Source: Owenia fusiformis (lineage: Eukaryota; Annelida; Polychaeta; Sabellida; Oweniidae). Taken from it: a stretch of DNA of 64,000 nt. Below, one piece after another: positions 13,601-61,240 of the stretch. The stretch covers positions 32,243,375 to 32,307,374 of the forward strand of contig CAIIXF020000005.1 of assembly GCA_903813345.2 (NCBI GenBank). Reading direction: 5' to 3'. The position numbers and the translations under genes were made by a program. Every line of letters begins with the position of its first letter. The stretch's first letter is position 1. The notes under the pieces are model-generated. The model was not told where the DNA came from. It did no database searches and worked only from the letters and a program-made list of their open reading frames with translations.

Positions 13601-16600
13601 AAGACGGCAGATTCGGATGAAAGATCTGAGAGAAAAACAGAATGCAATAATACAGAGAAAAAAGTAGGTACAATCAACTATTCAGAATTCTAACTATTTA
13701 GAATTATTACAAAATGCATGTAATAATATTCGCTACCTCCCATTAACAAGGGAACATATTGATATATGGATTGGCAATAAGAGGGTAAATTATAGGGTAG
13801 CAATTATAGTATTTGAAGCATCACATTGAGTGGAAGGGGAGCAGTATCATTAGCCTGGTGTTTCATATTTGTTGAATATAGTCTGTATTCTACTCCATCT
13901 ATTACACCATACAATGTTTTTCAGAGATAAAGACTTGCTGAGTGGATGGAGGGATGAAACTAAACAACAGCAGCGTAAACTACAATTTGATGCTATGAGA
14001 AAGGGCCCACCAGGTATGTGCCGAGTTGCTTGAATACTGTTTTTATGTCACCACAACAAGGAGTGACACAAGTGTTATAGTCTCCAACATCAGGGCGCAG
14101 TAACCAAACTGCATGCATACTATGCACACAGTTTGAAACACTGACAAACTGCAAACTGCGCGCATATCAACATTGCATCATACATACAAGTTGGAGTTTG
14201 TGTTTTCAAATGTCATTTTAAGACATTCATTCTGCACTTATTTATAGTTTCATACGTCCATACGGTGGCGATTATATGATCCATGTGATTTTGAAAACTA
14301 TGCCCAGATTAATGTAGATTTTAAAATATGAGCAGATTGATAAAAAATTCATCGTTTTTTTCCATTTTTGACAAATAAGTTGATGTCACAATTTTCAAAG
14401 AAATAGAAAATACTTGGGTTTTGGTTCACATGTAAATTTTTACATATATTTCACGTACAATACAAAATATTTTGTTTGGCATTTGTTGCAACTGGCAGCA
14501 GTGGTTCGGTGTAACAAATGGTGTCTGTAACAATTGGCGGTGTTGACATTTAATGCCTTGTTGCAGTTTGGATGTGATACATCTATACATGTAGTTAATT
14601 ACAATTTCAAAGCTTACAGTAACAAATACTAGAATGTATAATTGATTGTTGTAATGAGGAAAACTGAATAGAGATCTTACTTTTTCCCAATCTGATGTAA
14701 ATGTAATTTCTAATTTGTTTCAATGTGAAATTATGTCACTGTCCATTTATGCTCCACTATTTACTTTCTGCAAAATGCAAGAATCTACAAAAAATGCACA
14801 AGCTGTACAGTGTACATCATGTACACATAAGTTAACTAAATGTATTCTGTACATATCTGTTAAATAGCATAAATGCATTTTTTAATTTTAGAGTTCCTTG
14901 AACCAGTTCGTAAAGCTCCATTTGATATTGATCAGGATCACATAAAAATTCCAACAAATGAGCAAAGAATAAAGGTAACTAATTATATATAAACTGAAGT
15001 GAATGCATTTGTCATGCAGTAAATATTATACATTTTTGTAGTTTGTAGTTAGTTTAATCTAGATTAAGTTATTTTTTGTATATTGTACATTGTACTGACT
15101 AATATGTCATTGTCAAAGAGTCAATAAATGATATACAGGGTGTCAAATAAGTCCCGTCCCCCCTGCTACAGCTAAAATCTTAACAGACGGTACCTAGTGT
15201 GATATACCATTGGAAAGATCATCCAAAGTTATGTTAACTCACCAACTCTCAAGTATTTTGGATGAAATTTACCTATATTTTTATTATGTCTTTTATAGTT
15301 AACGTGCCCTCCTTTAAGTAGCTTTTTTGTGTCAAAATGACAAGGATATGACCTCAGAAAAACGTCAAAAAGTTAATCTTTTTCGCATTCCACTTGTTAC
15401 AAAAAGGTTTTCACCACTTTCCTTGCACCTCTATTTTCTATACATGTAACCCTATCCAGAAATTGGTAAAATTCATCGCCATAAACATATTTAGTCATCT
15501 TTTGGTCCCTTGACCTTTCTTATACCCGATTCTTAAAATCCTGCCAAATAAGCCAAATTGCCATGTTTCTAGGCATATGGTCACCTCAATTGATACAATG
15601 TAAAAATTTGTGAGATTGATTGACATGTGTCAGATATACGACAATCAACGTAACTTTGGAAGACCTTTCCAATGATATATCACACTTGGTACCAAATATC
15701 TTGGTTTTGGCTATAGAGGGGGGGGGGACGGGACTTATTTGACACCCTGTATATATGCCAAAATCAAAGAAAGGGGCCTGCTAGGCTAATCAGTTAATTG
15801 TGTTCTGTTGTGCATGTACTGTATATGAAGTGTCTCATTTATAACATTATAAGAATAAAATATTTGATAAAAAGAGGTTTTGCACAACCACTTCAGCTCA
15901 ACATGTCTAAATTCCATAACGCATTCACCAGATTCATGCGTAGCAGTTCAAATAAAATGAGATGCAGTTGTGGATAGGATACCTTTTAGCTATAACCCAT
16001 TGTGTAAAATCTCTCCAATGTTAAATACATGAATACAAGTGACCGTTCCTAGCTTGACCCTGCATGAAGTCCAACTTCCCATTTCAGGAAGAGGTCAAGG
16101 CCACACATGAGAAGATCCGAAGAGCTGCCTCTCCAAACACTATACAGAAATTAGAAATGGAAAGGTCAGTTTACTAATTCTAATACTGCACTTAGTTATT
16201 GACCCATCCAGAGGTCGACTGTTCAAATAATATCCCTACATTAATATGATGTGATATCATCCCCAAACACTATATAAACTAGCAATGCAATGCAATTCAT
16301 GGACCGACTTCAGAATGTTTTTCAACTTAGGTGCTAGCAATGTACATGTATCTCGGATTTCCAACGTATGATGTGTTCATATTGAAAATCAAACTGGGAA
16401 ACGAGTATGGCTAGCAATATGCAAATCACCTTGACATTTGATGCCAAATACAACTTGCAAATGTCATACCATGATCCAGGTTAAAGTGTTTGTGGAACTG
16501 GTTTTGTTGCTAGGTACTGTGTTATATAAACATTTTGATTTCATTTTGTGGTTCATTCAATACCCTTGTTTGTTGTATGCTTGCCTTAAATCTTAGCTCA

Positions 16601-19600
16601 AACCCCCAAAAATAATTGTATTTTAGGAGGATGCGAGATAACGAATTAAAAGAAAAATTGAAAAAGCACTCAGAAAAGATGGCAGAGAGGCGGTCATTGC
16701 CTAAAAAGAGTCCACAAGAAGAAATGCAACTGGCCCAGAGGGAATTGGAAATCGTATGTATATTCACAATTAACAACATTATCAAAGCAGTCACATTTCA
16801 AATGCAATTTACATTTGCTTATTTTTTTGACTTCATGGATTTATTTTGCTTCTTAGAAGTTTAATTATTAGATTTTAACTAGGGTAACTAAGTATTCCCT
16901 ATTCTGCAGAGTAACCATTAGTAAGATTGTTTTATAGTTTATCGCATGATTTTGCCAGTATTAGTGAAATAACCAGTATTGGTATCAATATACATCTATT
17001 CAGTGTAATGAATAGATTTTAATGTTATTGGTTATTTCACTCATATTTGATATCAGCAAAAGTTGTTATATGCATTATATAGATTTTATACCATGATACT
17101 GTTACTTCCTGGTGAATAACACCATGGAATATAATCGATATTGAAAAAACCTCCTAAAAATTTGTATTTACCTAGTCATCTCATTTTGGAATCATACACA
17201 CTTGGCCATCCCCTTATTGGAATCATATTCAACTGGTCATCTTTGTTTTTCATTCCTTAACATTTACTTTTTCAAAAACATTTATTTTTCAAAAAAATAT
17301 TTTTTTAAAAGGATTAATTTTTCTATTACTTTTTCAAAAAGTTCTCATCATCTCAAGCTCCATTGCTTGAAAAATGTTCACTTTCTCAATTTTTCAAAAA
17401 TGTTCACTTGTGCATAGTTCTTTCTGCGATATTAATTTAGATCATCACTCAGTCATTCAATATCATGGTATAAAATGCTTATTTCCTCTATTATCTGATT
17501 TATCTTGATATCATATTTATCAACTCATTGCAATCAATATCAAATTATACCATGCTTGTACTCACAATTTTACAATAAAATTAAGCTTACTCATGTGGAT
17601 ATTGATACCAACTTACTGATAAAAAGGATATTACTCAAAATCACATGGTATATCATACAATACTCTACAATACTTATTATATAGGTGAAGAGACTGCAGA
17701 AAGAACTAATTGGCAGATACAATAATTTACATCATTGGACCCAAGGTTTGGATTTGAATATTGTGAACAAAGATTGTGATCCTCTAATACCCTCTGCTTA
17801 ACCCTGATTCATTTTTTATTTCAATTTTAACACATATGGTAACCAAAATCTGACAAAACTGACATGTTACTCGTGTGCATTAGCAGTTTATTTTAAAGGG
17901 TCCTGTTTTCGAAACACTGGTCATGATGATGAATGTTTATATGGAAGAGATCAAATCAAAGAATTGAAGCTTTGAGGGTGTTTTGCTTTTGCTGCCCAGT
18001 TTCTACCAAAATGATGTTGTGAAAATTTAATGTAATTTGTCTGAAACATGGTGGAGTGAATACTAGCTGCGAGTAGAAATAATCTTGATTTACATCATTA
18101 GATATTCAACATTTAGTTAAATGGATATGTTATTGAATTCTACAATGTAAAATTGCACCTAGAAATGTGGTTTAAAGATGTTTTTACTAACTTTGAAAAT
18201 TTAATCTTCTAGGTCGGGGAGATTCCCCATAGACCCCATGTCACAAATTCATAAAAAGTGAAACATCTTTTTTTGTGTTGGGCAGATAATGTTTTCTTTC
18301 ACTGGACATACTTTTGTTTGTATAACTATCAGACACATAAGGATTATATTAAAATTGATCCACTTAGACTGATAATATTCAAGTTTAAGGTAACTTTATT
18401 ATATACCTGTCGTGCTAATTAACCCGAATCTGCCACCTGGTGGTGAAACTGGTAACTACCTACTCGCATCTGGGTAATTGATGAGGAGTCTTTTAGTTGT
18501 TTGAAATAGATTCATGTTTGCCTGCTTTGTTATTCTCCATTTCAATATCTTAAGTAAAGCTTTTATGGAAATTCACAAATTCGCAAATGCTTTAGAGTGG
18601 TTGCTTACACCATCCACGCAAAATTATTATGCAAAATGATTTCTAAGATAGGTTTAACAATATTGGACCCTTTATATTATATTATTATTTTATGAAACCT
18701 TAATAGTCTTAAATATAAGAAGTAGGATAATTCTTTCTTGTATAAGCATATAGTTGTCTGTCAGTTTCTCACTATTTCTATTCCTCTGTTTGTTGGATAA
18801 CCAGAACTTTAGGCCATATTACTTGCATAAAGCAGTTGTATTGTATGCTTGATCAATGAATGGAAACTATAGTTACTTGTGTAAATAATCTTATCAGTTG
18901 TGTTGTATCTTGAGGGGCTATCGAAGTCAAGGCTCTTATGGGTTAGCACAAAAGGACCATATCAATGTCAATGTATAACATTCAAGTGAACTGAAATGTT
19001 CAAATCAAAATAAATAGGATTGTTGGATAACCAGAACTTTAGGCCATATTACTTGCATAAAGCAGTTGTATTGTATGCTTGATCAATGAATGGAAACTAT
19101 AGTTACTTGTGTAAATAATCTTGTCAGTTGTGTTGTATCTTGAGGGGCTATCAAAGTCAAGGCTCATATGGGTTAGCACTAAAAGGACCATGTCAATGTA
19201 TAACATTCAAGTGAACTGAAATGTTCAAATCAAAATAAATAGGATTGTTGGATAACCAGAACTTTAGGCCATATTACTTGCATAAAGCAGTTGTATTGTA
19301 TGTTTGATCAATGAATGGAAACTATAGTTACTTGTGTAAATAATCTTGTCAGTTGTGTTGTATCTTGAGGGGCTATCAAAGTCAAGGCTCATATGGGTTA
19401 GCACTAAAAGGACCATGTCAATGTATAACATTCAAGTGAACTGAAATGTTCAAATCAAAATAAATAGGATTGTTGGATAACCAGAACTTTAGGCCATATT
19501 ACTTGCATAAAGCAGTTGTATTGTATGTTTGATCAATGAATGGAAACTATAGTTACTTGTGTAAATAATCTTGTCAGTTGTGTTGTATCTTGAGGGGCTA

Positions 19601-22600
19601 TCAAAGTCAAGGCTCATATGGGTTAGCACTAAAAGGACCATGTCAATGTATAACATTCAAGTGAACTGAAATGTTCAAATCAAAATAAATAGGATTGTTG
19701 GATAACCAGAACTTTAGGCCATATTACTTGCATAAAGCAGTTGTATTGTATGCTTGATCAATGAATGGAAACTATAGTTACTTGTGTAAATAATCTTGTC
19801 AGTTGTGTTGTATCTTGAGGGGCTATCGAAGTCAAGGCTCATATGGGTTAGCACTAAAAGGACCATATCAATGTATAACATTCAAGTGAACTGAAATGTT
19901 CAAATCAAAATAAATAGGATTGTTGGATAACCAGAACTTTAGGCCATATTACTTGCATAAAGCAGTTGTATTGTATGCTTGATCAATGAATGGAAACTAT
20001 AGTTACTTGTGTAAATAATCTTGTCAGTTGTGTTGTATCTTGAGGGGCTATCGAAGTCAAGGCTCATATGGGTTAGCACTAAAAGGACCATGTCAATGTA
20101 TAACATTCAAGTGAACTGAAATGTTCAAATCAAAATAAATAGGATTGTTGGATAACCAGAACTTTAGGCCATATTACTTGCATAAAGCAGTTGTATTGTA
20201 TGCTTGGTCAATGAATGGAAACTATAGTTACTTGTGTAAATAATCTTGTCAGTTGTGTTGTATCTTGAGGGGCTATCGAAGTCAAGGCTCATATGGGTTA
20301 GCACTAAAAGGACCATATCAATGTCAATGTATAATATTCAAGTGAACTGAAATGTTCAAATCAAATCAAATGTTCATTGAAGGTCCATTTTTAATATCTT
20401 ATGTTTTATTTTATTCAGGTGATACAAACATTTTTATTATAAGTTTATCATTCCAGGTTCTGTTGAAAGTATGATTGTTACATAGAGTGCTGGCTTCCGA
20501 TGCCAATGCATTACTATTATCTCAGCTTAACACACATTCTACCTTTCTAGAATCATTGCAGGTCATTGACAGGATACATCAGGCCCATAGCCATCTTTTG
20601 CCAAGGGGGGTCACAAAATCACTGTAAAAGTGCTCAGAATTGTGAAATTCTTTGCTAGAGGGGGTCACTTGCACCCCTTGAACCCCCCCCCCCCCCCTGG
20701 CTACAGGCCTGTCTTGAAAGAGAATTTAATAGCTATCAATGTATCCTGCTGCTGACAATGCAATGAGAGTAGACCTTTCATAATTAGCTTACATCTACAG
20801 GGTGCTCACTAAATTATGACACTACATTTCCCATTTTAACACATTTCCACCAGTCTTGCAGTTGACAAGAAATGCAGTCTAGAGTGTACAGTGCATACTT
20901 TCATTTCTCAAGTATTCAAACATTTTATTATTTCAATTTATCCTGCTGTCTACTTTGGTTTCAATATCTGGTCCAACAATTTGTAGTGACATTCATAGAA
21001 CATAAATAGAGGGACCAGTCATCTTCTTGGATGCACATGCTTACCTTTTCTTGCATTTTATTATGTTATTGGTCATTGAAATATTTGTTTTTGCAAGCTC
21101 TCAGATCAAACTTGTGAATGGTGGCTGTTGATGAGTTGTCTATTGAAAGAAGCTAATTTATTGATGGAAAACAGCATCAGATAATTGTAATTTATCAGAA
21201 TTCAAGAAAATGTGGCATCTTTCATAGTTAATGTTATTCTTAACATTGTTTTGGTCATGTGCATTGAAAGTTGCTATACATATCCACTTTTACATATTCA
21301 ATTTTACCTGAAATCTGTCAAAATGGGAGACCTTATCTTGAGTCATTCCTTATGAACACCCTGTATTGCATACCTTGTTAGCGAGCATACATTACACAAT
21401 TTTGGCCATTATATAAAATTGATCCCTTTCTTAATTTCTAACCATCTTGATTTTAAAACATTGTTTATCAGACTGAGAATACAAGCCCATTAACGCTGTT
21501 GAAATGTATATGTTTATTTTATATTTCTATGTATAGTTGGTTTTTACTCAGGACAACTCGGACCCAAGACATCTCGGACCCAAGACAACTCGGACCACTT
21601 TTTGAAATTTTTGATTTTTATCATTATATTTGGTTTTAATTATTTTTTATGTTTATTTTGACATATATTATATATTGTGAATTCATATAGTATGTTAATT
21701 TGATGAAATTGTTTTAAATTAATGTTTTGATGAGAGTTAAGAAGTAAGAAATTATTGAAGCTAAAGACCCAAGACAACTTGGACCACTTTTTGAAATGAT
21801 GGTTTTTATCATTGTATGGGGTTCTAATTTTTTTGTTTAATGTTTTTTATGACATATACGTATTATATATTGTGAATTCATATATTGTGTTAATTCGATT
21901 AAATTGTTTTAAATTAAATCAACTATAACTTCAAAAAGTGGCCCGAGATGTCTCGGGTCTTCAGCTTCAATATTCTCTTACTGGTCTTACTTCATAACTT
22001 TCATCAAATAAGTCAAATTAAAACATTTTCATCAAGTTAAAACAAAATATGAAGTCACAATATATAATATATGTATTAATTTTCATAAATGAAAAAATAA
22101 AACCTCACATAATGATAAAGATCATAATTTTAAAAAGTGGTCCGAGTTGTCTTGGGTCCGAGTTGTCCAGGGTCCGAGTTGTCCTGGGTCCGAGTTGTCC
22201 AGTTACCGTATAGTTGATATACAAGTTGACTGAAAGACATATGCTGAATTATGTATTATTTTAACCTAGTTAACAAAATCAATGTAAAAAAATTTACATT
22301 TTGGTTTTCTATCTAGATTTTACACTGTGCAGTTTACCAATTATGTCTTGTATTGGTGTTATTATGATTTTTAACATGCCTTTATTAAACTAATTTTATC
22401 TTTTATTATCAAATCCCTGGTTCACAATTCCACCTCAAAAATGAAGATGATTCATAATTTTAGTGATGTAAACAAATAAACAAACAAGCGAACAAATAAA
22501 TGAATAAACAAACTTGCACAATTAGTAAGAATAAAACTGATATTTTCCTCATATGTATTTTCAGGCTAATGAACTGCAGCAACAGTTAGCAAGGCGCCGT

Positions 22601-25125: not shown

Positions 25126-27121
25126 TTTTTTTTTTTTCATTTCTCATTTATTCCAAATATAACATAAAATACATTACAATATTATTGCCTACGTTTTTCA
25201 ACATTGTCGGCAATATACAAAACATATAAAAATGGAAACAATGAAAATACAATAGATAAGGTACATAATATTAATGGCAGGGAATGTTAGAGGCTTTCAG
25301 GGGGGGGGGTTAATCTAAAATATCAAGAGCCTGGCAGATGTAATGGCTAACTATATGAATAATTTGTTCATTATCAGTTACAGTGAGATTTCTGTCTCCA
25401 AATAATAAAAATTGAATTTTTTCATGAGAGTTTAAATTTTGGAAACGATTGAAAAATCCTAAGGTTTTTAGTCCTGCTAGGAGAGTGCATCTTTCTTGTT
25501 GCAGCAGAGGGCAGTTTAATAAAAAGTGATGCGTTGTTTGTTGTATGTCACCACATACGCAGAAAGGGTCATTTACTGTCACAAAGTTATGGGAATATAA
25601 ATGTGCTTTTAGAATCAGTCCAGCTCTAAATCTATTGAACAGAATTTCAATTTTCCTTGGCATTGTCATATTCATTTTAGTAGTGGATACTCTGGAGTCA
25701 GGGCTCATATTTCCTCTTACTAACCTTTTAAATCTAGATATTGGTTGGCCTTTCCTGTCCTCATATGGTATGTCATCCCACAGGGTCATAGCCCTGATAA
25801 TGGTCGACTTTTTGAACGAATTACTGATTGGAAAGGGTATTCTATAATGCCTTGGTTGTCTTAGGGGCCGATTTGGAATATTCTCGTATGAACTAACTAA
25901 ATCACAAATGAAAGGAGGGAAACAATGGTATCTAGCCTTGAAAGCAAAAATTTTAAGATGTTCTTCTCTCCTGGAAGCTAACGTTTTCCAGTTGAGTAAT
26001 GATAAAACTTTCGATGTGTTTGAACCGTGTATTGCTCCTGACACATGGCAAGCTGCTTGATAATGAAGTCTATCCAATGTTAATAGTTTTGAAGTTGATG
26101 CCTTATCATATATTGTATCACAGTAGTCGAAATGTGGTAGTATAAATGAATTATATATATTCTCTAGGTATTTACTGTTTAGCATTTTAGTTAACTTTTT
26201 CAATGGTCTCATGAGAGAGATTACTCTCTCTATGAGTTGGTCAACATGTGAATTAAAGTTAAGATTTTGATCAAGTACTAAGCCCAGGTGTTTGTGTTTG
26301 GTGCAACTAGGAATCACATCTCCTCCTAGTTTTAAAGGGACTGGCTCTTGTAATAGTCTTCTATTTCCTGATACAAAGGTTAAGTCAGCACTTTTTTGTG
26401 CCTTAAAAGTCATCTTCCAAGTCATGGCCCAATTTGCCAAAATGTCAAGATCTCTTTGAAGTGGTTGGTGAATGTTTAAAATCTGATCAAAACTGTCATG
26501 TGCACTATAAATAGATGTATCATCAGCAAAAATAAATGTTTTGGATAGGAGATCATCTGGTAAGTCATTAATGTAAATTAGAAATAGGAGGGGCCCGAGG
26601 ACTGATCCTTGAGGTACACCTGCATTGATTTTATAGTTATTTATATTGTGATCATTGTTATTATTATTGATATTTGTTCCATTATTAAGATTTCCATAAT
26701 TTTCAGAAGACCAATCAGATAAGCTGTTGTTGACTTTGGCTCGAACCCTTCTGTCTTTTAAATATGATGTCATTAGCTGTACAAAATTGAAATTACAACC
26801 ATAGCCTTTAAGTTTCTGTATAAGTAATCTATGCGGGACTAAATCAAAAGCGGCTGTTAAATCTAAAAAAGCTGAGCGGACATATTTATTATTATCTATA
26901 TTTTCATGGATATTGTGAACAATGTTAATTAACTGGTTAACGGTGCTGTGCTTCGGGAGAAAACCACTCTGGAATTTGTATAAAAGGTTGTGTTGAAGCA
27001 GATGAGCCAAAAGATGTTTGTGAATGATGGTTTCAAGAACTTTCGAAAGGTTACTTAAGAGTGTCACCGGTCTATAGTTGCTGACAAGTTCCCTGTCTCC
27101 TTTTTTATAAATAGGAACTAT
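25126..27121 (-). mobile_element. 5'-truncated non-LTR retrotransposon (LINE), with poly(A) and 9-bp target duplication
   Basis: On the minus strand the element ends in a poly(A) tract (T run at 25126-25137). gggggatgt flanks it on both sides (25117-25125 and 27122-27130), in the middle of the G-rich repeat, which supplies the empty-site sequence. The 5' end is cut inside the reverse transcriptase domain, the usual result of incomplete target-primed reverse transcription. The intact frame suggests a recent insertion. Confidence 0.9.
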
Positions 27122-27133
27122 GGGGGATGTCAA
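25310..27133 (-). CDS. LINE reverse transcriptase ORF, N-terminally truncated (CR1/Jockey-like)
   Basis: 607 codons without a break. The first four residues (MTSP) come from the flanking host repeat, so the ATG is not the element's own; LINE sequence begins at IVPIYKKGD. Reverse transcriptase motifs follow: NYRPVTLLSNLSKVLE (about 19-34), motif A FLDLTAAFD (89-97, D91), GVPQGSVLGPLLFLIYINDL (172-191) and the catalytic FADD (202-205), then HLGLVLDQNLNF. The C-terminus has a Cys/His knuckle, CVCGDIQQTTHHFLLNCP, as in several non-LTR clades. An Asn-rich insertion (about 149-167) sits between motifs A and B, probably a simple-repeat expansion. Endonuclease and ORF1 are absent, so it cannot move alone. 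The exact clade needs a phylogeny. Confidence 0.93.
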   Translation of the reverse strand: MTSPIVPIYKKGDRELVSNYRPVTLLSNLSKVLETIIHKHLLAHLLQHNLLYKFQSGFLPKHSTVNQLINIVHNIHENIDNNKYVRSAFLDLTAAFDLVPHRLLIQKLKGYGCNFNFVQLMTSYLKDRRVRAKVNNSLSDWSSENYGNLNNGTNINNNNNDHNINNYKINAGVPQGSVLGPLLFLIYINDLPDDLLSKTFIFADDTSIYSAHDSFDQILNIHQPLQRDLDILANWAMTWKMTFKAQKSADLTFVSGNRRLLQEPVPLKLGGDVIPSCTKHKHLGLVLDQNLNFNSHVDQLIERVISLMRPLKKLTKMLNSKYLENIYNSFILPHFDYCDTIYDKASTSKLLTLDRLHYQAACHVSGAIHGSNTSKVLSLLNWKTLASRREEHLKIFAFKARYHCFPPFICDLVSSYENIPNRPLRQPRHYRIPFPISNSFKKSTIIRAMTLWDDIPYEDRKGQPISRFKRLVRGNMSPDSRVSTTKMNMTMPRKIEILFNRFRAGLILKAHLYSHNFVTVNDPFCVCGDIQQTTHHFLLNCPLLQQERCTLLAGLKTLGFFNRFQNLNSHEKIQFLLFGDRNLTVTDNEQIIHIVSHYICQALDILD

Positions 27134-27833
27134 GGGAGGAGGGGGTGCCAGAGGGGGAGATGGAGTGGAGATGCAAGAGGGCGAGTAAGTGTTAGTCTCC
27201 CAGAATCATTGACTATATCAAGGAGCTATTTGATGATGTCTGGGCACTTTACATGTGTCTGAGATGATACATATTTAAATTCAGAACTTTTCAATTGTTT
27301 TGTTTTGGGTGGGAGAGGAGGCCCACTCCCCCTAGAAAATTTTACAATTTTAAAACGCTATTTAGTGCTCTCTGGGTACTTTCAAAGTGTATGAGTCAAT
27401 TAAAAACTTGAGAAAATCACAATTTTTTTCAATTTTTTGGAGGGGTGTCAAGGAGGAGGGGTGCCAGAGGGGAGGTGGGGTGGGTTGGGGATCCCAAAGG
27501 GGAGCAAGTGTTAGTCCCCCAGAAACATTGACTATATCAAGGTGCTATGTGATGATGTCTGGGCACTTGGGCACTTTAAAAGTGTCTGAGACAATACATA
27601 GAATAAATTCAGAACTTTTCCATTGTATTGAGGGGGGTGTGAGGGGTGACCCACTCCCTCTAGAAAATTTTACAATTTTAAGATGCTATTTGGTACTTTC
27701 TGGGCACCTTAAAAGTGTATAAGACGATGAAAAAAAAAATTACCAAAAATTATATTTTAAAAAAATTTAATTTTTTTTGGGGGGGGGTGTCATAGGGGGG
27801 TGCGGTCGCACCCCCCCCATCTGACGGCCCTGT

Positions 27834-29999: not shown

Positions 30000-30400
30000 C
30001 ATCTACATCTAGTTTATCTGCTACAACAGCAGCGGCTGTATATCCGCACAAGGGTTTGTATATTTGCTATATCTGTTATGGCTTGTATATCAGTTTTAGT
30101 CTGCATATCGACTGCTTGATTTGTGCTACTAAACGTTTGCATGCAATTGCATATCTGCTGCAGCGTATCCAGTACAAGCTTCTATACGTGATAGGCCTAC
30201 AGCATCTATACGCGTTATATCTTCCACAGCTTTTATATGTGTTACAACATATATATCTCCTACAACTCTGTTGTCACACTTGTATATCTGCAATAACTTT
30301 AATTTTATATCTCCCATAGTTTTTACATCTCCTACAACATTTATATCTCCTACACCTGGCTGTTTACTTATCTACTACAGTTCGTATCTAACGTTTGTAA
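30000..30400. repeat. Degenerate TATATCTCCTACAAC repeat region
   Basis: Variants of tatatctcctacaac, catatctgctgcagc and tatatctgttatggc recur irregularly about every 20-35 bp, thinning out after 30360. An old, decayed minisatellite. It explains the Leu/Tyr-rich open frames on both strands at 30056-30319. Confidence 0.6.
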
Positions 30401-30490
30401 CTTTATATTTTATATAAACTCGATTTTCGATTGTCAATTGCTTATTTTTGGAATAATCTACGATTATTGATGAAACAAAAGAAAAAAGTT

Positions 30491-30572
30491 TATCATTTGC
30501 ATTCGTTCGACTTTTCTTTTTAAAAGAGAGCTTCGTCTTCGGTAGTTTATAACTAGACTCTGCACGCAGTGT
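30491..30572 (-). mobile_element. 82-bp micro-element, copy 1 (minus orientation), 9-bp TSD
   Basis: Reverse complement of the unit at 37499-37583: tttgcattcgttcgac, agagagcttcgtcttcg and actagactctgcacgcag are shared. The direct repeat aaaaaagtt flanks it at 30482-30490 and 30573-30581. Confidence 0.7.
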
Positions 30573-30582
30573 AAAAAAGTTT

Positions 30583-37360: not shown

Positions 37361-38210
37361 AGTAATTAAAGGTCCATGTGCAGTATGGCAAGCGATTTTA
37401 GACAGTCATATCTTTCACCATGGGTACTTTCTGGCCATCAATGCAGTTGTTTTTATCAAAACAATTTGCTTTCTTTCAAGCGAAATCCCCATGATAGTTA
37501 CCCTGCACGCAGAGTCTAGTTAAACTACAAGACGAAGATGAAGCTCTCTTTTAAGAAGTGAAGTCAAACGAATGCAAAGGGTACATGATAGTAAAATATC
37601 AATCCAACTCTCTGAAAAATTATGGATTAGGACCCCACCTTGGCACTTTTTTAGAAAATGTTAGGGTCATTTTCTAAAAAGAAGATCTTGTTTTTCTCAA
37701 TTTAAACATATTGAAAGTTTCTTCTACACTATATTATTATTAACATTTTCTGAAAAGGGGATGCGTATTGAAATGCGTTAAAGGTAAAAACCACATATCC
37801 CACGTTATTTTCCCATAGGGAAAACTTGTGCTATCCATTGTTGTCAGCATAACTTTTGGTCATCGAAAATTGATATCTTCAAAACTAGCCTTTAAATACC
37901 ATTCTAATTTTGAAGAAGTTTTAGACCCCTTGATGAATAATCTTTTCATGCAATAAAAACCAGAAAAAGAAGATCCTCTTTTGAGTAAATAGGTTCAACA
38001 TTATGAAAAAAATGTTGACATGGGGTCCCTATTCATAATTTATCGAGTTGTTCGATTGATATTTTTATCATCATGGGTACTTCACTTGAAAGAAAACATT
38101 GTTTTAATAAAAACACTGTATTTATGACTAGAAAATATTCATGGTTAAAGATATGACTTTCTAAAATCACTTGCCATACTGCACATGGACTTTTGAATTT
38201 AATAAAACTA
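37361..38210. mobile_element. About 850-bp palindromic element (long hairpin)
   Basis: ggtccatgtgcagtatggca near 37371 is mirrored by tgccatactgcacatggact near 38173. Complementarity runs inward through the tcatatcttt, tttctttcaag and aggacccca segments to about 37740 and 37890. The left arm is interrupted by the 85-bp micro-element at 37499-37583, so that insertion is younger than the palindrome. Confidence 0.75.
37499..37583 (+). mobile_element. 85-bp micro-element, copy 2, with 9-bp TSD catgatagt
   Basis: taccctgcacgcagagtcta ... aacgaatgcaaagggta, flanked by catgatagt at 37490-37498 and 37584-37592. The other arm of the host palindrome gives the uninterrupted sequence, so both the borders and the target duplication are directly visible. 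Confidence 0.85.
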
Positions 38211-40279: not shown

Positions 40280-40359
40280 TACCCTGTACGAAGAGTCTAG
40301 TTAAACTACGAAGACGAAGCTCTCTTTTAAGAAGTGAAGTCGAACGAATGGAAAGGGTA
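40280..40359 (+). mobile_element. 80-bp micro-element, copy 3
   Basis: taccctgtacgaagagtcta, gttaaactacgaagacgaag, ctctcttttaagaagtgaag and tcgaacgaatggaaagggta. The flanking nine bases (gtctgtaaa and tctagtgaa) are only partly alike, so any duplication has decayed. Confidence 0.75.
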
Positions 40360-43300
40360 TCTAGTGAATGAACATTCGCAATTATCAGACACAACGCAAA
40401 CCCACACAGGAGGATGACGTAATACATAGTCTCTTGTGAGGAATTATTAGAGTCCTGCTGTATATCCCATTGTTATCTCAGTTATTTGAAGTCCATGCTT
40501 GAACTAAAATTGGGAAATATATCTTATTTCTGCTCAACATAAATGATTTTTACTTTATAATATTAATTACACATTCTGGTACAGAAAAAATTGCATTATA
40601 CAAATGTGAGCCGTCACGTTAACTTCACTATAAGCAATTCTATAAAAAAAACTTCTAGTTTGCGTAGCTGAAGATATGTTATAAATAGTCCTATTATCGT
40701 TTCACTTGAGTAAAATTAGATTGAGTTGAAAATGAAAATCACACTGATCTACATAACTTATTTCAGTTAAAATCGCTACAAAAAAACTCTTGTTAGGCCT
40801 ATATGTTACTTTGCCGAAAAGTTGTATAACTGCGATGGCTTTCTCATAATTTTTATGATCACTTTGTGGTACCAGAGTCCATGAAGTTTTGTAGTTTAAT
40901 AAGTATAATATGGTACCCTGCGTGCAGTCTTTTGAGAAGTGAAGTTGAACGAAAGTAAAGGGTAATAATATGGATATTTTTTTTCCTTTCGCCTCCAGTC
41001 ATAGAAACATTTTCGTAAGAATGAAGAATAAACACAACGTATCAATAATAACTGGAGTCAGTTCAGTGATTTGTGGTGTTGTTCTGGTTGAATATTTCCC
41101 TTGGGGTTTCTGGTCAATCAAAGAGCATCAATTGAGATAATGGTTGCAAACTTTGTTGCAGATTGATGCAGTTATGAATGCAGTCCGATTACCCATTGTG
41201 GGATCCACAGTCTCAACTAACCCTTGGAATGACTGATAAATCAGAATGCGATTACCCGTTCGTATCTGATATTATAAAACTATTAATTTATGGTTATCGA
41301 TTCACAACAGAAAACGCGAAAAAGAGTTACTTAGATAATTGGACATAACTCATTTTTGATGATCGTAATGATTGTTGTTTCAAATGCCCTAGATATATCC
41401 CACCCTATGCATATAGATTGCTCGAAAGTAATCGGCCGGGAGTACGGACGCGATGCGATAGGTTTGTTGAAATATAAATAACCTCTAACCCATTTTGATT
41501 CACAAAGTTTCAGTTGCTTCCATGGAAGTCGAAGATGCACTAACACACGATTTCGTTAACATTTTTTTTGTTGACTGAAGATCCAATTTGGTCCTTTTTG
41601 CATCAGAATACCATTCAAATTAAATCATTAGTCATGTAAGAAAGACACATTTTGGCTTGTGAGACTGTTCATTTTCTTTTCTTTTTTGTTATAAACGTTA
41701 TTCTAGTGAATAGCCAACATTTAAATATATCTGTCCACAGTTCAAGTTGGGTGGTGTTCACAGTTCAAGGTTTTTAAGCTTGTGCCGTAATGGAAGAAAA
41801 AATGGGACCAGAAAAAACGAGTACGGATAAGCGATATGTCCAGATGTACAATACACTAATTCAACAAAAGTTCATATTTTTTATTGCCCATACATATTTT
41901 TTCTCTTTTTTGTAAGGAAACTGTCACATAAAACAATGGATTAATTTTTCTAAGCATATAAGTCATATTGATGCTCAGGGTTTCATTTGTTCCAATCTCG
42001 TTCCTTGCGAAGAAGGTGAACATTAGTTTGCAATATGATCGACGCACAAACATGCGACACGATGGAAAACTTGGGACAAAAAAGTAGATCGACGTTGGGT
42101 CTAGAGTATTGATTAACAGAGTAATTCAAAAAATGAGTTCGTCGCTGATCGAATGCAATTTGAAATACATAAGCATATAGCGTGCAGGTCAGCTGGGAAT
42201 TTTGTACGTTTTTGACGCAACGTATATTTATATGTCTGACAACGTGCGTATGAGAAAGTGAATTATCTAGCAATAGATCAGCCCAGCTCACGACGAGACA
42301 ATCCAAAATTGGAATATCGATCTCACGCTTAACTTATAACCCAAGTTCAGCATTAGTACGAGTCACCTAGGGTCATAGAATTGTCATATTACGGCATATC
42401 GGTATCTTCTCTTAGCATTCTAAGACATCTGTTATTGGAATATTATAGAAAATAGGTAAACCATGGCAGCATAGATAATTGTATCATTCTGTTATAGTGC
42501 AATCAATCTAACAATAAAAAATAATGAGTAAGTGCATCGCTGAAGAGGTTAATATCTCGAAAACCATTGTATCTCATTTCTGAGCTGTTAAAGTTCTCAG
42601 TACATGATGGGGTTCTAAAAATTATGAGTGTAACTTTTTTCTATTGTCAATTGACATCATTAATTTGAGAAATACAATATAATGCGTTCTAAAGAGGATC
42701 TTGTGAGACGTGTTAGATACATGTAAGCTAAGAGGAATGCAACATTTTAAAAAGTTTTCAATCTAAAATTTGAAAAATATCAGTAATAGAATGATAGTCC
42801 GTTTATATACCCGTTCTCATAGTTTCATTTTACTTTTTAAGAAAGCGTATGTTCAATGTACTTGCCCATTTGAACAACATGTAGGCTCTGATCCTTAAGG
42901 TTATTCTTCAATGCACGAGACACGAGACTGCGCCCGTATACTTACATAATTTACGACAAAGAACGCGGAAATGAGCAGGAAGATTATAAATAGCTGATGT
43001 TGATTAATTATGGTAAACGCATAAACTCACCTTCACGTAAAGAATATGGGCGTTCGTATTTGTAGAGTAAAAGACTCGACTCTGATGACATCAGCATATA
43101 ACGTGCTGTCGTCACAACATACTGAACAGTCAATAAAGTTGGAGGTTCATGATATCAGGATGTCGAATTTAATTTATCATTCGCCCGCTTGATTATCGAG
43201 AAATATTAGCTACATTTCAGAAAAATCAAGAAGTAGGTGTATAAATGCATACATAGCCATTTCTATAATTTCTATAGCAATATCGTCAACGTTCAATTAA

Positions 43301-43800: not shown

Positions 43801-43991
43801 ATATTCCGTGACTAAGAAGTAACATTTACCGGCTTTGAGTTCGTCGACTGTAATCTGAATCATATACCCCGGCTGTACATCTCTCAAAAGTTCAATATTC
43901 CGGGCTTCGGGGAATGTTGCATGTGAAAGATGCACGGGTATTCATTTACCCTACTTTAAATGAAATGTGTATAAGGTGTGAGGTTCCATAT

Positions 43992-44033
43992 CCATCCGCC
44001 AAAAGGTATGACCCATCCGCCAAAAGGTATTAC
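43992..44033 (+). repeat. 21-bp tandem duplication
   Basis: ccatccgccaaaaggtat plus three bases repeated twice back to back. Confidence 0.9.
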
Positions 44034-44235
44034 CCCTATATAGTCCATTTAAATGACCTGTGATTTTGTCCTAAATAACGCCATAGTTGGCTTCTAGGGT
44101 ACCTAGTATGCCACTATTTGGTATCAAAATAAAGAGGAGGAGTTCAAATGCCATATGTCATGTATGTGCAGAGTAGTGTCCAGAATTTTCTGTTGGATTA
44201 CTGTACTCACACCATAAGGATTGAGTATTGAGATG

Positions 44236-44326: not shown

Positions 44327-45818
44327 TTCACGCCTAACCATCGCGTAAGCAGGCGTCAACGTACAGCGTCAAAAAATACAGTAGTACAGTTTTCTGTACG
44401 GTGACGAAAATTAACTGAGTTGAAGCAAAAACTATAATGAGGGTTTTAAAAATATTAATTATATGAAAATAAATACGATTTCGGGTGTAATAAAAACAGC
44501 ATTCTCTTAGGAATGGTTTTAACTTTCTAATTATGATAAAGGTTCTTCGAGCACTGCTCGGATTTTTTCTGACTGGATCGGCCCACATAATCGACTCGAG
44601 AGAAAAATGCTGTTTTTTCACTTTTCGTTTGGTTATTATTTTCCCTGTCGTCTGAGAGTATGGATTATTTTTATGAGAATATGTAATGGTTATCTACACA
44701 TTTTAGAACAGATGAATATTCGGCAAAAATCATTCAGTGTATTTATTCAAAAAAGATCAGAACTATACGGTGACGCATCAGCTGTACGGTGACGCTTCCT
44801 TAGATTTTATGAAGTGCTCGAAGCTTACTGTTCGAACAAGAGGTAAAGAAGCGTCAGATCTACATGTACATTATCACTGGTAAGTATCAAGCGAAGGTTA
44901 CAGCCGTCACCTTCGCATTTAAGATGGCGGACAGGAAGTATTAATTTCGATATTTTTAGTTTTCATGGAATTAACTATTTGAAAGTTGACGTAATGCTTT
45001 GGTATCATTTGAACTAAATCAGACTTTTCTCATATGACTAACAAAGATAGCCTACACAGCCATCTTTACCCAATGCAAGATATTGCATCTTTCATCCTAA
45101 AAAGTCACACGTGCAAGATGAGATTTACTTGTGACATCCCTTGTTTTAAAACATCAATAACATAGCAACAAGAGAGTTTTTGGTTACATGATCTTTACCG
45201 TATCATACATTTCCAGTAACCTTCCATTAAGCGGTGGAAGATATCGTTAAACTGTAGCGCCCATGCGCTATATATGAACAAATGATCATACTCCAGAGTT
45301 TCCATTTCATACAATCTTAGTCTCATTTAGTTCATCAAAGCATAGCGTCACCGTACAGCTGGTGCGTCACCGTACAAATTTGATCTTTTTTAAATATACA
45401 TAATGCATGGTTGTTTGCTGAATCTTCAACCGTTCTAAAATGTGTAGTCAACAAATACATATTCTCATAAAAATAATCCATACTCTCAGACGGCAGGGAA
45501 AATAATAACCAAACGAAATGTGAAAAAACAACCTTTTTTCACTTGGGTCGATTATGTGGGCCGATTCACTCAGAAAAAATCCGAACAATGCTCGTAAAAC
45601 GTTTATCATAATCAGTAAGTTAAAACCATTTCTAAGAGAATGCTGTTTTTATTTCACATGAAATCGTATTAGTTTTCATCAAATTAATTTTTTTTAAATC
45701 CTTGTCATAGTTTTTGCTTCAAAGCAGTTAATTTGCGTTACCGTACAGAAAACTGTACTCCGCTATTTTTTGACGCTGTACGGTGACGCCTGCTTTCGCG
45801 ATGGTAAGGCGTGGTGTT
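44327..45818. mobile_element. Foldback element with about 470-bp inverted arms
   Basis: 44327-44796 and 45344-45818 are inverted, moderately diverged copies over their full length. Matching marks are catcgcgtaagcaggcgtca with its complement, gtacagttttctgtacggtg, gagaatatgtaatgg / acatattctcataaaaataa and gtacggtgacgc. The outer and inner ends of both arms carry the word tacggtgacgc, as in elements whose termini are built from short direct repeats. The 547-bp spacer contains pieces of the 12977-13218 family. No transposase seen. Confidence 0.85.
44873..45037 (-). repeat. Truncated copy of the 12977-13218 element inside the foldback spacer
   Basis: tcactggtaagtatcaagcg, acagccgtcaccttcgcatt taagatggcgga, then aatttcgatatttttagttt, matching the end half of 13218-12977. 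A further fragment of the same family, ctccagagtttccatttcat ... tcatcaaagcata, is at 45289-45343, directly against the foldback's right arm. Confidence 0.65.
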
Positions 45819-54065: not shown

Positions 54066-55803
54066 TTTATGTCACCACCAAAAGTGGTGACATATTGTTA
54101 TGGTCTCCGTTTTTTTTTGCGACGGCGGTTGGCGTCCGGCGGTTGGCGTCCGGCGGTTGGCGTCCGGCGTCCGGCGGTTGGCGTCCGGCGTCTGTAACAA
54201 TTTCTTACAACTTCCTATAACTTAACAAATACTGTTTAGACTGACTTCAATTTTTTTCTAAATCATCTACATGTTCTCAGAAGTTCAAATCTGACTTTAG
54301 ATTTGACATTTGACCTTCAATGACCTTCTCAAGGTCAAAAAGGTCTTTTTTCAACTTGCTTCACATTGACTAAATTTTTTTTCAAAATCATCTACATGTT
54401 CTCAGAAATTCAAATCTGACTTTAGATTTGACTTTAGATTTGACATTTGACCTTCAAATCTGACTTTAGATTTGACATTTGACCTTCAATGACCTTCTCA
54501 AGGTCAAAAAAGGTCAAAAAGGTCTGTTTTCAACTTGCTTCAAATTGACTAAATTTTTTTTTCAAAATCATCTATGTGTTCTCAGAAATTCAAATCTGAC
54601 TTAAGATTTGACATTTGACCTTCAATGACCTTCTCAAGGTCAAAAAAGGTCAAAAAGGTCTGTTTTCAACTTGCTTCAAATTGACTAAAAAAAAATTTCA
54701 AAATCATCTACGTGTTCTCAGGAATTCAAATCTGACTTTAGATTTGACTTAAGATTTGACATTTGACCTTCAATGACCTTCTCAAAGTCAAAAAAGGTCA
54801 AAAAGGTCTTTTTTCAACTTGCTTCAAATTGACTAATTTTTTTTTTCAAAATCATCTACATGTTCTCAGAAATTCAAATATGACTTTAGATTTGACATTT
54901 GACCTTCAATGACCTTCTCAATGTCAAAAAAGGTCAAAAAGGTATTTTTTCATCTTGCTTCAAATTGACTAATTTTTTTTTTCAAATTCATCTACATGTT
55001 CTCAGAAATTCAAATATGACTTTAGATTTGACTTGAGATTTTACATTTGACCTTCAATGACCTTCTCAAGGTCAAAAAAGGTCAAAAAGGTCTTTTTTCA
55101 ACTTGCTTCAAATTGACTAATTTTTTTTTTCAAAATCATCTACATGTTCTCAGAAATTCAAATCTGACTTTAGATTTGACATTTGACCTTTAATCACCTT
55201 CTCAAGGTCAAAAAAGGTCAAAAAGGTCTGTTTTCAACTTGCTTCAAATTGACCAATTTTTTTTTCAAAATTGTCTACATCTTTTCAGAAGTTCAAATTT
55301 GACTTTACAAGTTCTCAGAAGTTCAAATCTGACTTTAGATTTGACCTTTGACCTTCAATGACCTTCTCAAGGTCAAAAAGGTCTTTTTTCAACTTGCTTC
55401 AAATTGACTAATTTTTTTTCAAAATCATCTACATGTTCTCAGAAGTTCAAATCTGACTTTAGATTTGACATTTGACTTTCAATGACCTTTTCAAGGTCAA
55501 AAAGGCCTTTTTTTAACTTGCTTCAAATTTACTTAATTTTTTTTTCAAAATCATCTACATGTTCTCAGAAGTTAAAATCTGACTTTACATTTGACCTTCA
55601 ATGACCTTCTCAATGTCAAAAAAAAGTCAAAGAGGTTTTTTTTTCAACTTGCTTCAAATTGACGAATTCTTTTTTCAAAATCATCTACTTGTTCTAAGAA
55701 GTTCAAATCAAACCTTCTTAAGGTCAAAAGGTACTTTCCAACTTGCTTTAAATTGACCAAATTGTTTTAGGTGGTGACATTTTGTCATGTTAATGCCTTG
55801 TTA
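54066..55803. mobile_element. Full-length GTCACCAC-family element carrying an AGGTCA tandem array
   Basis: Opens with ttatgtcaccaccaaaagtg gtgac (a hairpin by itself), then a GC-rich block of ggttggcgtccggc repeats (about 54118-54192), then the array, and ends aggtggtgacattttgtcat gttaatgcc. The terminal atgtcaccacc/ggtggtgacat are inverted. Shorter copies are at 5994 and 14043. Confidence 0.75.
54225..55745 (+). repeat. 130-170-bp tandem repeat, about 11 units, each with clustered AGGTCA half-sites
   Basis: Unit wording: aacttgcttcaaattgacta, a T run, caaaatcatctacatgttct cagaaattcaaatctgactt, tagatttgacatttgacctt, caatgaccttctcaaggtca, aaaaaggtcaaaaaggtc. Units vary by internal duplication of the gactttagattt phrase. 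The spacing of AGGTCA words is described under findings. Confidence 0.92.
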
Positions 55804-55837: not shown

Positions 55838-57630
55838 CGTCTTCTACAATGCCCATGTGTTAATGTATATGTCTACAATGGCCATGTGAAAACTTCTATG
55901 TCTACAATGGCCATGTGAAAACGTCTATGTCTACAATGACCATGTGTAAACGTCTATGTCTACAATGCCCATGTGTAAACGTCTATGTCTACAATGTCTG
56001 TGTATAAACGTCTATGTCTACAATGACCATGTGTACACGTCTATGTCTACAATGCCCATGTGTAAACGTCTATGTCTACAATGTCTGTGTATAAACGTCT
56101 ATGTCTACAATGACCATGTGTACACGTCTATGTCTACAATGCCCATGTGTAAACGTCTATGTCTACAATGTCTGTGTATAAACGTCTATGTCTACAATGC
56201 CCATGTGTAAACGTCTATGTCTACAATGTCTGTGTGTAAACGTCTATGTCTACAATGGCCATGTGAAAACTTCTATGTCTACAATGCCCATGTGTAAACG
56301 TCTATGTCTACAATGCCCATGTGTTAATGTATATGTCTACAATGGCCATGTGAAAACTTCTATGTCTACAATGGCCATGTGAAAACGTCTATGTCTACAA
56401 TGACCATGTGAAAACGTCTATGTCTACAATGACCATGTGTAAACGTCTATGTCTACAATGGCCATGTGAAAACTTCTATGTCTACAATGGCCATGTGTAA
56501 ACGTCTATGTCTACAATGCCCATGTGTTAATGTATATGTCTACAATGGCCATGTGAAAACTTCTATGTCTACAATGGCCATGTGAAAACGTCTATGTCTA
56601 CAATGACCATGTGAAAACGTCTATGTCTACAATGACCATGTGTAAACGTCTATGTCTACAATGCCCATGTGTAAACGTCTATGTCTACAATGTCTGTGTA
56701 TAAACGTCTATGTCTACAATGACCATGTGTACACGTCTATGTCTACAATGCCCATGTGTGAACGTCTATGTCTACAATGTCTGTGTGTAAACTACTATGT
56801 CTACAATGGCCATGTGAAAACTTCTATGTCTACAATGGCCATGTGAAAACGTCTATGTCTACAATGACCATGTGTAAACGTCTATGTCTACAAGGCCCAT
56901 GTGTAAACGTCTATGTCTACAATGTCCGTGTGTTAATGTATATGTCTACAATGGCCATGTGAAAACTTCTATGTCTACAATGGCCATGTGAAAACGTCTA
57001 TGTCTACAATGGCCATGTAGAAACAACTATGTCTACAATGTCTGTGTATGAACGTAACGCCTATGTCTACAATGTCCGCGTGTAAACGTCTATGTCTACA
57101 ATATCTGTGTGTGAACGTCTATGTCTACAAGGCCCATGAGTTAACTAGAATGTCTCGAATGTTCATGTGTAAACGTCTATGTCTACAATGTCCATGTAGA
57201 AACAACTATGTCTACAATGTCTGTGTATAAACGCCTATGTCTACAATGTCCGTGTGTAAACGTCTATGTCTACAATGTCCGTGTGTAAACGTCTATGTCT
57301 ACAATGTCTTTGTATAAACGTCTATGTCTACAATGTCCGTGTGTAAACGTCTATGTCTACAATGTCCGTGTGTAAACGTCTATGTCTACAATGTCCGTGT
57401 GTAAACGTCTATGTCTACAATGCCCATGTGTAAACGTCTATGTCTACAATGCCCATGTGTAATGTAAACTTCTATGTCTACAATGTCCGTGTGTAAACGT
57501 CTATGTCTACAATGCCCATGTGTAAACGTCTATGTCTACAATATCTGTGTGCAAACGTCTATGTCTACAATGCCCATGTGTAATGTAAACAATGTCTACA
57601 ATGTTCATGTGTTAACGTCTATAACCTACA
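55838..57630 (+). repeat. 29-bp minisatellite, about 60 copies
   Basis: Unit gtctatgtctacaatggcca tgtgaaaac with variants cccatgtgtaaac, gaccatgtgtacac, tctgtgtataaac and tccgtgtgtaaac. Variants form higher-order blocks: between 55940 and 56210 a three-unit (87-bp) pattern repeats. Since 29 is not a multiple of 3, all three frames share the same cyclic peptide, which explains a string of 60-84-codon open frames; they are broken by unit variants and are not a gene. Confidence 0.96.
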
Positions 57631-58024: not shown

Positions 58025-59199
58025 TTGTTAGATCGAAACAATATCTCGTCGCGTGAGAATAACTTTGTACTAACTGCCATTTTCCAAAAAATTGAGATAG
58101 ACATGGAATTTTACTATTTGAAACACAGGCTTTCATCTCAGATACATGCCCCATCTCAACTCCCTCTCATTAAGCTAGAATTCAGTGTGAAATTGTACCA
58201 TCTCCAGACAAACAGCTTATTTCTAATTTCAAATTGTCATATCTGATATCAACTGTTTCAACCAATCAACTCTCTAAGAATTGGTCATGTGACTTGCAAA
58301 ACTTGGAGTTATAACAATCTTATATTAAAACGAAGTATGCCAATATGCATGTTATTGTATCTAGAATGAAATAATGTTTTGTAACACAATACCATGCCAG
58401 TTTGCATGCCTGGCCTTTCATGTTTTAGTTTTAGAACTATTACAAGTAGATCAAAAAAATAAAATGATACAATATGTGTAATCCCATGCATATTCAAATT
58501 ATATGCCCTCAATTACTCTTTGTATTATGGATGCTCATTGGATTATTCATGGCCACATGATATGAAATAGAATTACTAATTTCCTCGAAAACCTAAATCC
58601 TTGCTACCAGGAAAGATGAAAAGTACAAATGACCAGTTAATTAGATCATGTGAGCAGTCAAAAGTACCCTTTATCTTCCCTGCTACCAGGTCTTATAGGG
58701 GTTTGAATGGCCAAATGCAATAGAAATGCATATACGAAGCTGTCATCATTAAATGTTGAAAATGAAAGACTACTTATTTGTTTCTTCAAATAGAGTACAT
58801 AATAATAGGTTATATACTAGATATAGTAATCAAAACAAATAGTAACTGTCATATTTTGCACTACATTGCTCAAAGGCAATCACTGTCTGTATACTATTGA
58901 AATCTCTTTCAAATGATGTTTTATAGTTAGTGGAAAAAAGATAAATCTATTTAAACTAGCTTTAACTTTTACTGACCATACACTATATCAATAAGGAGTT
59001 ATCTTTATGTTAGTATAGTCCCTTAAAACACTTATTTTATTTTCTCTTCATCTATGATTTACTTTGCGTTTTTCACTGAACATCTGGGATCTTTTTAGTT
59101 ATTTTATTACTAGTATGTTTTTCAGATTTGTCCTTTCTTTTGCATTTTTGGGATCATTGTTTTTAGATTTTTTTATTCTTTTTTTATATGTTATTTATT

Positions 59200-59720
59200 T
59201 CATAGTAAAATAGAATTATTACACACACATGTTGCGGCTTTGCAATGGAGCATTATAAGCCACAATTGAATAATAACAAGATTTAAAAAAAAAGAAAGTA
59301 TGACAATGGATTTGCAATAAACAAAATAATTATTGTGTACAAAATAATACAGTTGGTGGTGGAAGAAATACTTACACGCTTGCACACCTTTGAATAAAAG
59401 CTGAGGTGAGCCTTAAAATTTCAATATTAACCTCTTTTGGCAGACTTCTGTCTCAATACAAAAACAATGATAATTTGTCTTGCTGGTTTTTAAATGCTGG
59501 GTAATTAAAATTTAGAAGAGTAAGTGCATCCTCTAAATCTTTAAGATATTGTGATCTAAGGTTACAAGAGAACATGACATGAATGGATGTTTCATTGCTA
59601 TACCCACATTTGCATGTAGGGGATGGTACATTAGTAAAATTGTTTTTAGATCATCTACATTTTATTTTGGAAAAGTAACAAATTGGTTCAATTTCTTTAC
59701 AAAGAGCCACTCTTAGTCTC
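59200..59720 (-). pseudogene. Decayed LINE 3' end (C-terminal Cys/His knuckle)
   Basis: The minus strand from about 59642 to 59450 reads FTNVPSPTCKCGYSNETSIH, VMFSCNLRSQYLKDLEDALT, LLNFNYPAFKNQQDKLSLFL, Y, stop. CxCGxxxETxxHxxxxC is the same tail knuckle as in the intact LINE at 25310. Upstream only fragments survive (ALCKEIEPICYFSK). The region downstream (59200-59440) resembles LINE 3' UTR, including atgttgcggctttgca, comparable to tatgttgcggtttaac at 61711. Confidence 0.7.
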
Positions 59721-59929
59721 CACTTCTACAATTGCTTCAATTCCCAATTGTACTCCACAGAGTAGCAAACAACAGAAAATGAATGGATAATGATAGCTGC
59801 ATCCCAATGAACAAAATGTGATTACCTAAATCGAGGTTTCATCACTTTCATTAATCTAAAATGAATTAGAAATTATTTTTCTATTTTCAAATTTCTTCCA
59901 TGTGCATGTAATAAAAATTGGTTATGTCT

Positions 59930-60075
59930 TAGGCCCTAAGGATCTGAAACCTGCTGGTCAAAATGGAATTACGGACCAGTTGCAATGTTATTCTCCTATA
60001 CCCAGTGAAAAAATCAACTGGTCTGTATCAAAAATAACCTGATAATGACCAGCGGACCGGACCTTAGGGTCTACA
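59930..60075. mobile_element. About 145-bp MITE within the inverted-arm structure
   Basis: Left ttaggccctaaggat ... ctgctggtcaaaat and right ataatgaccagcggaccgga ccttagggtct are imperfect inverted repeats. No coding content. Confidence 0.55.
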
Positions 60076-60765
60076 TTGTAATGTGCTGGGAGGTTTAGGC
60101 TACAGGGTTTATACCGAGGGAAATATATATGTGGGGGACCGTATTGGCATCATTGGTTTCAATGCATTGTACTTCTGCCTTAGTTTCAAAGGCAATAAAT
60201 TCTTTTGAAGGGTGTCCTAAGATTCCAAAATTAAGAAATAATTGTACTTATTTGAGAAATTGATTTTAAAGTTTTATAAATTGAATTTTCTTTATTTTAT
60301 TAAATAATATTCTTTGGTTTTTGAAGATTTTTTTACAAAGCAAAACATTATTTTTCATTCTAGATACAATAACATGCATATTGGCATACTTTGTTTTAAT
60401 ATAAGTTATAACTCCAAGTTTTGCAAGTCACATGACCAATTCTTAGAGAGTTGATTGGTTGAAACAGTTGATATCAGATATGACAATTTGAAATTAGAAA
60501 TAAGCTGTTATTCCGGTGGGAAATTGTATCAACTCCATTTCCATAGTTTTAAAAAAGGATCTTGTAAATTGTTTCAAGGTATGATATTTCATATAAGATA
60601 TCTCTAGGGTGAGACCAGGTGACATACAAAAAATCAAGTTTCACATAGCAATACTAAGTAAGATACAGACCTCTAAACTTTCAAACCTTGATTTCTCAGT
60701 TCCGGAAAAATGTGAGATAGTACAAAGTTATTCTCATGCGACGATCTGTTATTGCTACTATCACG

Positions 60766-61009
60766 ATGATTTCATAATTTAGTTTACTCAAAACAAAATT
60801 AAATGTAAGGCGATTTCAGGATCTCAGATCTTATCCTAAGTGTGATCCCACTTTTCAGTTCCATTCCATACTAAGACTGTTAGAAAAACAAATATACCGC
60901 CATAGAGATTGCAGTCCCATTCAAGGACTAGTATCTTTGAAACAGTTTTCAAAAATTCAATTATTTCTCAGCCACTAGTTAAGCAGACTTTGAATTTTTC
61001 AGGATCACT
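60766..61009. other. Unique DNA, nothing recognised
   Basis: Short spacer between the inverted structure and the next dispersed repeat. Confidence 0.4.
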
Positions 61010-61240
61010 GGTCACTACGGTAATGCAGTAAACACGTTACAGATATACGGGTATGTCACATTTCGCAGCTGAAATATGTCATATTCGGCAGGTGAATAGG
61101 CCCGTGAATATGTCATAATCACTGCAAATAAAAGCGCGTTACAGAAATACGCAAGTCGTTTGAACGAAGGAAAAAAGTTTTTAAATTAGTGTAATGATCA
61201 TTGAATCAATAATACAGTTCATTGAATATATCAACTAATA
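61010..61240. repeat. GCTGAATATGCCATATTC dispersed repeat, copy B
   Basis: cgcagctgaaatatgtcata ttcggcaggtgaa, gcgcgttacagaaatacgca agtcg and attgaatcaataatacagtt cattgaatatatcaac align in order with 43604-43800. Confidence 0.6.

Follow-up and report, generated by a model that had tools for sequence, protein, structure and literature searches.

mJing was considered as a candidate very short MITE, one of the miniature non-autonomous DNA transposons. It was set aside as a counterpart of the elements described here because it belongs to PIF/Harbinger, and a text search of its description for a length returned none (PMC6850418; this and the other cited sources were available as excerpts, and statements drawn from them extend to those excerpts). 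MITEs generally measure 50-800 bp and carry terminal inverted repeats (TIRs) and target duplications (PMC6171319), the latter being 2-9 bp long in plants (PMC12595863). Duplications of 5-8 bp are given for hAT elements (PMC4482050) and of 8-11 bp for Mutator-like elements (MULEs), whose TIRs span 14-500 bp or are missing altogether (PMC6446971); arthropod MULEs have TIRs of 13 bp as a minimum (PMC13359780). A MULE-Mollusca group is listed, in the excerpt of PMC6446971 without a duplication length. One mollusc study reports MULEs in every genome it analysed, and its curated library contains 39 MULE versus 3 Merlin consensus elements (PMC10294476).

The window analysed here, a continuous stretch of 64,000 nucleotides, contains a family of very short sequences that resembles MITEs in general in its size, lack of transposase coding, inverted ends, target duplications and dispersal over unrelated sites, and that differs from them in lying at the bottom of the described size range, not outside it (PMC6171319). 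The 9-bp length of its duplications is shared, by description, with MITEAba12 of Acinetobacter, a bacterial MITE derived from an insertion sequence (PMC6382973).

Four related copies and their ends

Four copies at 30491, 37499, 40280 and 40914 had been proposed by a sequence-only reading of the window, and a profile built from the four as well as their alignment confirmed them:

30491-30573, minus strand: candidate MITE copy of 83 bp with diverged ends TACACT...ATGATA
37499-37583, plus strand: candidate MITE copy of 85 bp with intact ends TACCCT...AGGGTA
40280-40359, plus strand: candidate MITE copy of 80 bp with intact ends, without a perfect target duplication, possibly with a decayed one (two edits)
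40914-40964, plus strand: candidate MITE copy of 51 bp with intact ends, the shortest of the four by 29-34 bp

The profile recovered these four copies in the 64-kb window, and its next match had an E value of 6.5. With lengths of 51-85 bp, the copies have no room for transposase coding. The proposal that all four share their ends holds for three of them, in which TACCCT/AGGGTA is exact and forms an exact TIR of 6 bp, but not for the 30491 copy, which reads TACACT...ATGATA. All four can be aligned over their full length, with small gaps and, in the 51-bp copy, a deletion in the centre. In ungapped columns, the 37499 copy is identical to the 40280 copy at 75/80 positions and to the 30491 copy at 66/83, and the latter two agree at 65/80; the 40914 copy agrees with 37499 at 42/51, with 40280 at 42/51 and with 30491 at 39/51. 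Blastn values were ~5e-21 for 37499 versus 40280 and 9e-7 for 40280 versus the 37 bases common with 40914.

Following the first five bases, the copies continue with TGCACGCA (37499), TGTACGAA (40280) or TGCGTGCA (40914 and 30491), and these subterminal variants would be compatible with an ancestral TGCGCGCA in which two CpGs have decayed. When the 51-bp copy is split optimally against any of the other copies, it comprises 14 bp from the left end and 37 bp from the right. Inward of the exact 6-bp TIR, the left and right ends differ in sequence; in the fold of the 37499 copy, the TIR extends further only with bulges, and single-strand DNA folding of the four copies was no better than that of shuffled sequences (z of -0.16 to 0.66).

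A short and dispersed sequence of this kind could also have been cut from a longer repeat, or represent a structured RNA gene together with its retrocopies. Comparison of the 150-bp flanks between the four copies gave matches of 9-13 bases only (E of 0.12 or worse), and because the flanks are unrelated the copies are not pieces of a longer repeat. Furthermore, their ends are inverted, the folding z values lie near 0, and the window yielded neither an Rfam match at the gathering score nor a tRNA gene, which leaves this explanation very improbable. A search of the whole window for the 5' end with up to three mismatches found no standalone occurrence: its three matches all lie inside known copies, and the 40914 copy is without part of that stretch. 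The TACCCT/AGGGTA pair at 5521-5560 and the wider pairs at 16561-16886 and 43947-44101 were rejected as copies, as they have no 9-bp repeat and are absent from the profile and blastn matches.

Target-site duplications and the host palindrome

The copies at 37499, 40914 and 30491 are flanked by the following direct repeats:

37490-37498, plus strand: left target-site duplication CATGATAGT of the 37499 copy, perfect (9/9)
37584-37592, plus strand: right target-site duplication CATGATAGT of the 37499 copy, perfect (9/9)
40905-40913, plus strand: left target-site duplication ATAATATGG of the 40914 copy, perfect (9/9)
40965-40973, plus strand: right target-site duplication ATAATATGG of the 40914 copy, perfect (9/9)
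30482-30490, plus strand: target-site duplication AAAAAAGTT next to the low-coordinate end of the 30491 copy
30573-30581, plus strand: target-site duplication AAAAAAGTT at the high-coordinate end of the 30491 copy, its first A doubling as the element's last base if the family TA end is kept

Three perfect duplications had been claimed. Perfect 9-bp repeats at exact TACCCT...AGGGTA ends were found for two of the four copies (37499 and 40914), whereas the third, AAAAAAGTT at 30491, is perfect only with the shared A, that is, with the element taken one base shorter, and is one edit off with the family TA end. Loss of one A from an A-run would explain this discrepancy. The 40280 copy has no perfect repeat, and its best alignment, TCTGTAAA versus TCTAGTGAA, requires two edits. 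By chance, a perfect 9-mer repeat occurred at 21 of 191,340 window placements (spacings of 51, 80 and 85), or about 1 in 9000. A second sample of 85,040 window placements contained 37 perfect repeats, 158 with at most one edit and 1136 with at most two, and the repeat at 40280 is therefore at most suggestive. A set of 100 first-order Markov surrogates yielded 11 similarly spaced TACCCT/AGGGTA pairs, none of which had a 9-bp repeat, as against four pairs of that size range in the real window, two of them with such a repeat.

The 37499 copy is inserted in a palindrome (37368-38194), the arms of which match over 93 nt at 83% without gaps and over about 240 bp with gaps. The opposite arm was aligned across the insertion point:

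37962-38199, minus strand: opposite palindrome arm in which the 37499 insertion is absent (empty site), 79% identical over the junction, with one target copy

The sequence-only reading had noticed an empty site here, and the alignment confirms it: read from 38199 to 37962, this arm aligns straight through the insertion point and contains a single, slightly different target copy. The best interpretation of the arm is the target as it was before the 37499 copy inserted. Its single target copy supports insertion with target duplication. A family of micro-elements with 9-bp target duplications, as originally suggested, is borne out by the repeats, the empty site and the surrogates.

The same arm bears on a different delimitation of the copies, in which a TA-duplicating (Tc1/mariner-type) element would run from CCCTG to AAGGG and the outer 9-mers would be coincidental. 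TA...TA ends are present in three of the four copies, and in diverged form in the fourth. However, such an element needs an empty site consisting of 9-mer, TA and 9-mer, while the empty arm holds one 9-mer-like stretch and therefore speaks against a TA duplication, provided that this arm has not lost a 9-mer. In addition, a perfect 9-mer repeat is expected at only about 1 in 9000 placements, yet is present at two copies, and a Tc1/mariner-type element is hardly credible here. A hAT element was rejected as well, as the duplication is 9 bp long and is neither extendable nor shorter at the fixed ends in two intact copies.

The window contains additional repeats. A long inverted repeat at 58037-60753 resembles a TIR or foldback element; its arms at 58204-58315 and 60405-60516 are 97% complementary, and additional arm segments pair 58319-58371 with 60353-60405 and 58037-58083 with 60707-60753. 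Another palindromic element is the inverted repeat at 44329-45813, with 290-nt arms that are 86% complementary. Perfect 8-bp repeats, AGTGGGTA, were identified at 61268-62843, where the terminal 12 bases are inverted at 11/12 positions, representing either a TIR element or chance. Tandem arrays include a 29-bp array at 55843-57622 (61 copies, 86% matches), which adjoins a 136-bp array at 54453-55709, and a 225-bp array at 18790-20365 (7 copies, 98% matches).

Probable MITE family and candidate transposase sources

The four copies very probably constitute a family of MITEs, a reading based on their relatedness despite unrelated insertion sites, on nearly invariant ends, on varied 9-bp duplications and on one empty site. 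Their size, lack of coding capacity, inverted ends and 9-bp duplications (perfect in two of four copies, one edit off in the third and doubtful in the fourth) agree with this assignment, and the copy number is four in 64 kb, counted in this window. Counting against it are the missing perfect duplication at 40280, the ambiguous one at 30491 and the negative window searches for a transposase and for a longer element described below.

In such a family, a DDE-type transposase supplied from another locus of the genome would bind both element ends, cut the element out and join it to its target with a 9-bp stagger, the fill-in of which would generate the duplication. As the ends share only TACCCT exactly, recognition would therefore have to rest on the tip together with inner sequence that differs between the two ends. 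The 51-bp copy would derive from an internal deletion before or after insertion, and this deletion may postdate insertion. The earlier concern that elements this short leave almost no room for binding sites poses no real difficulty, as the 51-bp copy keeps about 14 + 37 bp of ends. That the elements are a pair mobile at 51 bp with unlike ends, near the smallest eukaryotic cut-and-paste substrate and possibly of an undescribed superfamily, is considered improbable.

A Pfam scan covered 27 of the 28 stop-to-stop open reading frames (ORFs) of at least 90 aa in the window (all but 30133-30417). No transposase was identified among these 27 ORFs, and the matches listed below the cut-offs also included none; matches above the curated cut-offs were limited to reverse transcriptase and leucine-rich repeats. 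The 98-aa ORF spanning the 40914 copy (40702-40998) had no Pfam match. A 631-aa open frame on the minus strand (25310-27205) contains an RVT_1 domain (E of 1.6e-30) and lies amid degenerate repeats of 24.4-27.7 kb. Open frames at 7418-11946 (plus strand) resemble exons of a leucine-rich-repeat protein, with LRR_8 in 8954-9256, and we take them to be reminiscent of LRRC27. At 61925-62893 (minus strand), two frames with a common stretch, a 179-nt direct repeat (62367-62545/62601-62779, 97%), have the appearance of a non-LTR reverse transcriptase tail, with no Pfam match above cut-off.

No longer element with the family ends was found within the 64-kb window. A search of the window for other elements of up to 3 kb with 9-bp duplications and at least 10 of 12 TIR bases matching returned none, with a filter that is too strict for the family itself. 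When 6-bp ends starting with TACC or TACAC were combined with 9-bp repeats over distances of up to 12 kb, only the 37499 and 40914 copies were recovered in the window; the only further pair obtained with 8-bp repeats allowed, at 58196-61883 (TACCAT/TACTAT), was taken as chance. Exact family patterns had 0 matches in public viral contigs (three patterns) and prokaryote genomes (two patterns), where animal DNA is not expected and a negative result carries little weight. Matches were present in 22 phage records; the 20 listed matched over 18-25 bases only, with a best E of 0.7, and were taken as chance.

If the copies are MITEs, the source of their transposase is most likely a MULE, a moderately confident assignment that follows mainly from the duplication length. 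The 9-bp duplication lies inside the MULE range of 8-11 bp, 9 bp is common in MULEs, and MULE families without TIRs occur (PMC6446971). In contrast, the exact TIR of 6 bp is shorter than the minima of 14 bp (PMC6446971) or 13 bp (PMC13359780) and would be atypical for a TIR MULE. Another or an undescribed DDE superfamily with 9-bp duplications and TACCCT ends is a possible, less likely source. A 6-bp exact TIR is too little for a superfamily call, and literature text searches for six element strings, and for TACCCTG together with transposon terms, returned nothing; however, no positive evidence points to such a superfamily, and MULEs are widely distributed, with TIRs that vary (PMC6446971).

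A source in the Merlin superfamily, which has an IS1016-like transposase, would also accommodate the 9-bp duplications, as Merlin duplications are 8-9 bp long (PMC4482050, PMC8101967), and one Merlin family with very unequal TIRs has been reported (PMC8101967). However, the Merlin families described in the excerpt of PMC8101967 all start with 5'-GG, whereas the present family starts with TACCCT in three copies and TACACT in the fourth. Furthermore, Merlin elements are sparse in molluscs, a point that counts only if the host is a mollusc, as the look of other repeats in the window might suggest; automatic libraries nearly restrict mollusc Merlin elements to cephalopods, and an ORF search recovered 63 elements, in addition to the 3 curated ones (PMC10294476). 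Merlin is thus regarded as a quite unlikely source. The preference of the sequence-only reading for a MULE over mariner or hAT was reasonable in view of the duplication lengths and of an empty site that disagrees with a TA duplication, but it had left Merlin unweighed, though the 5'-GG ends of that superfamily are absent here.

Place among described elements

In the excerpts available, the literature on the shortest MITEs, bivalve and oyster MITEs, 9-bp duplications, Merlin and Mutator elements and animal MULEs does not describe the element. The family may already be named in RepBase or Dfam. It fits a known kind of element, the MITE, at its lower size limit, and is striking only for its small size and unlike ends.

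The default of MITE Tracker is a TIR alignment of 10 nt, and the exact 6-bp TIR of this family falls below it (PMC6171319). So short an exact TIR may be overlooked by MITE finders with this 10-nt minimum for the TIR alignment, and such elements may therefore be undercounted. Should the 51-bp form itself be mobile, it would set a bound on the DNA that a eukaryotic transposase needs, at about 14 + 37 bp of element ends.
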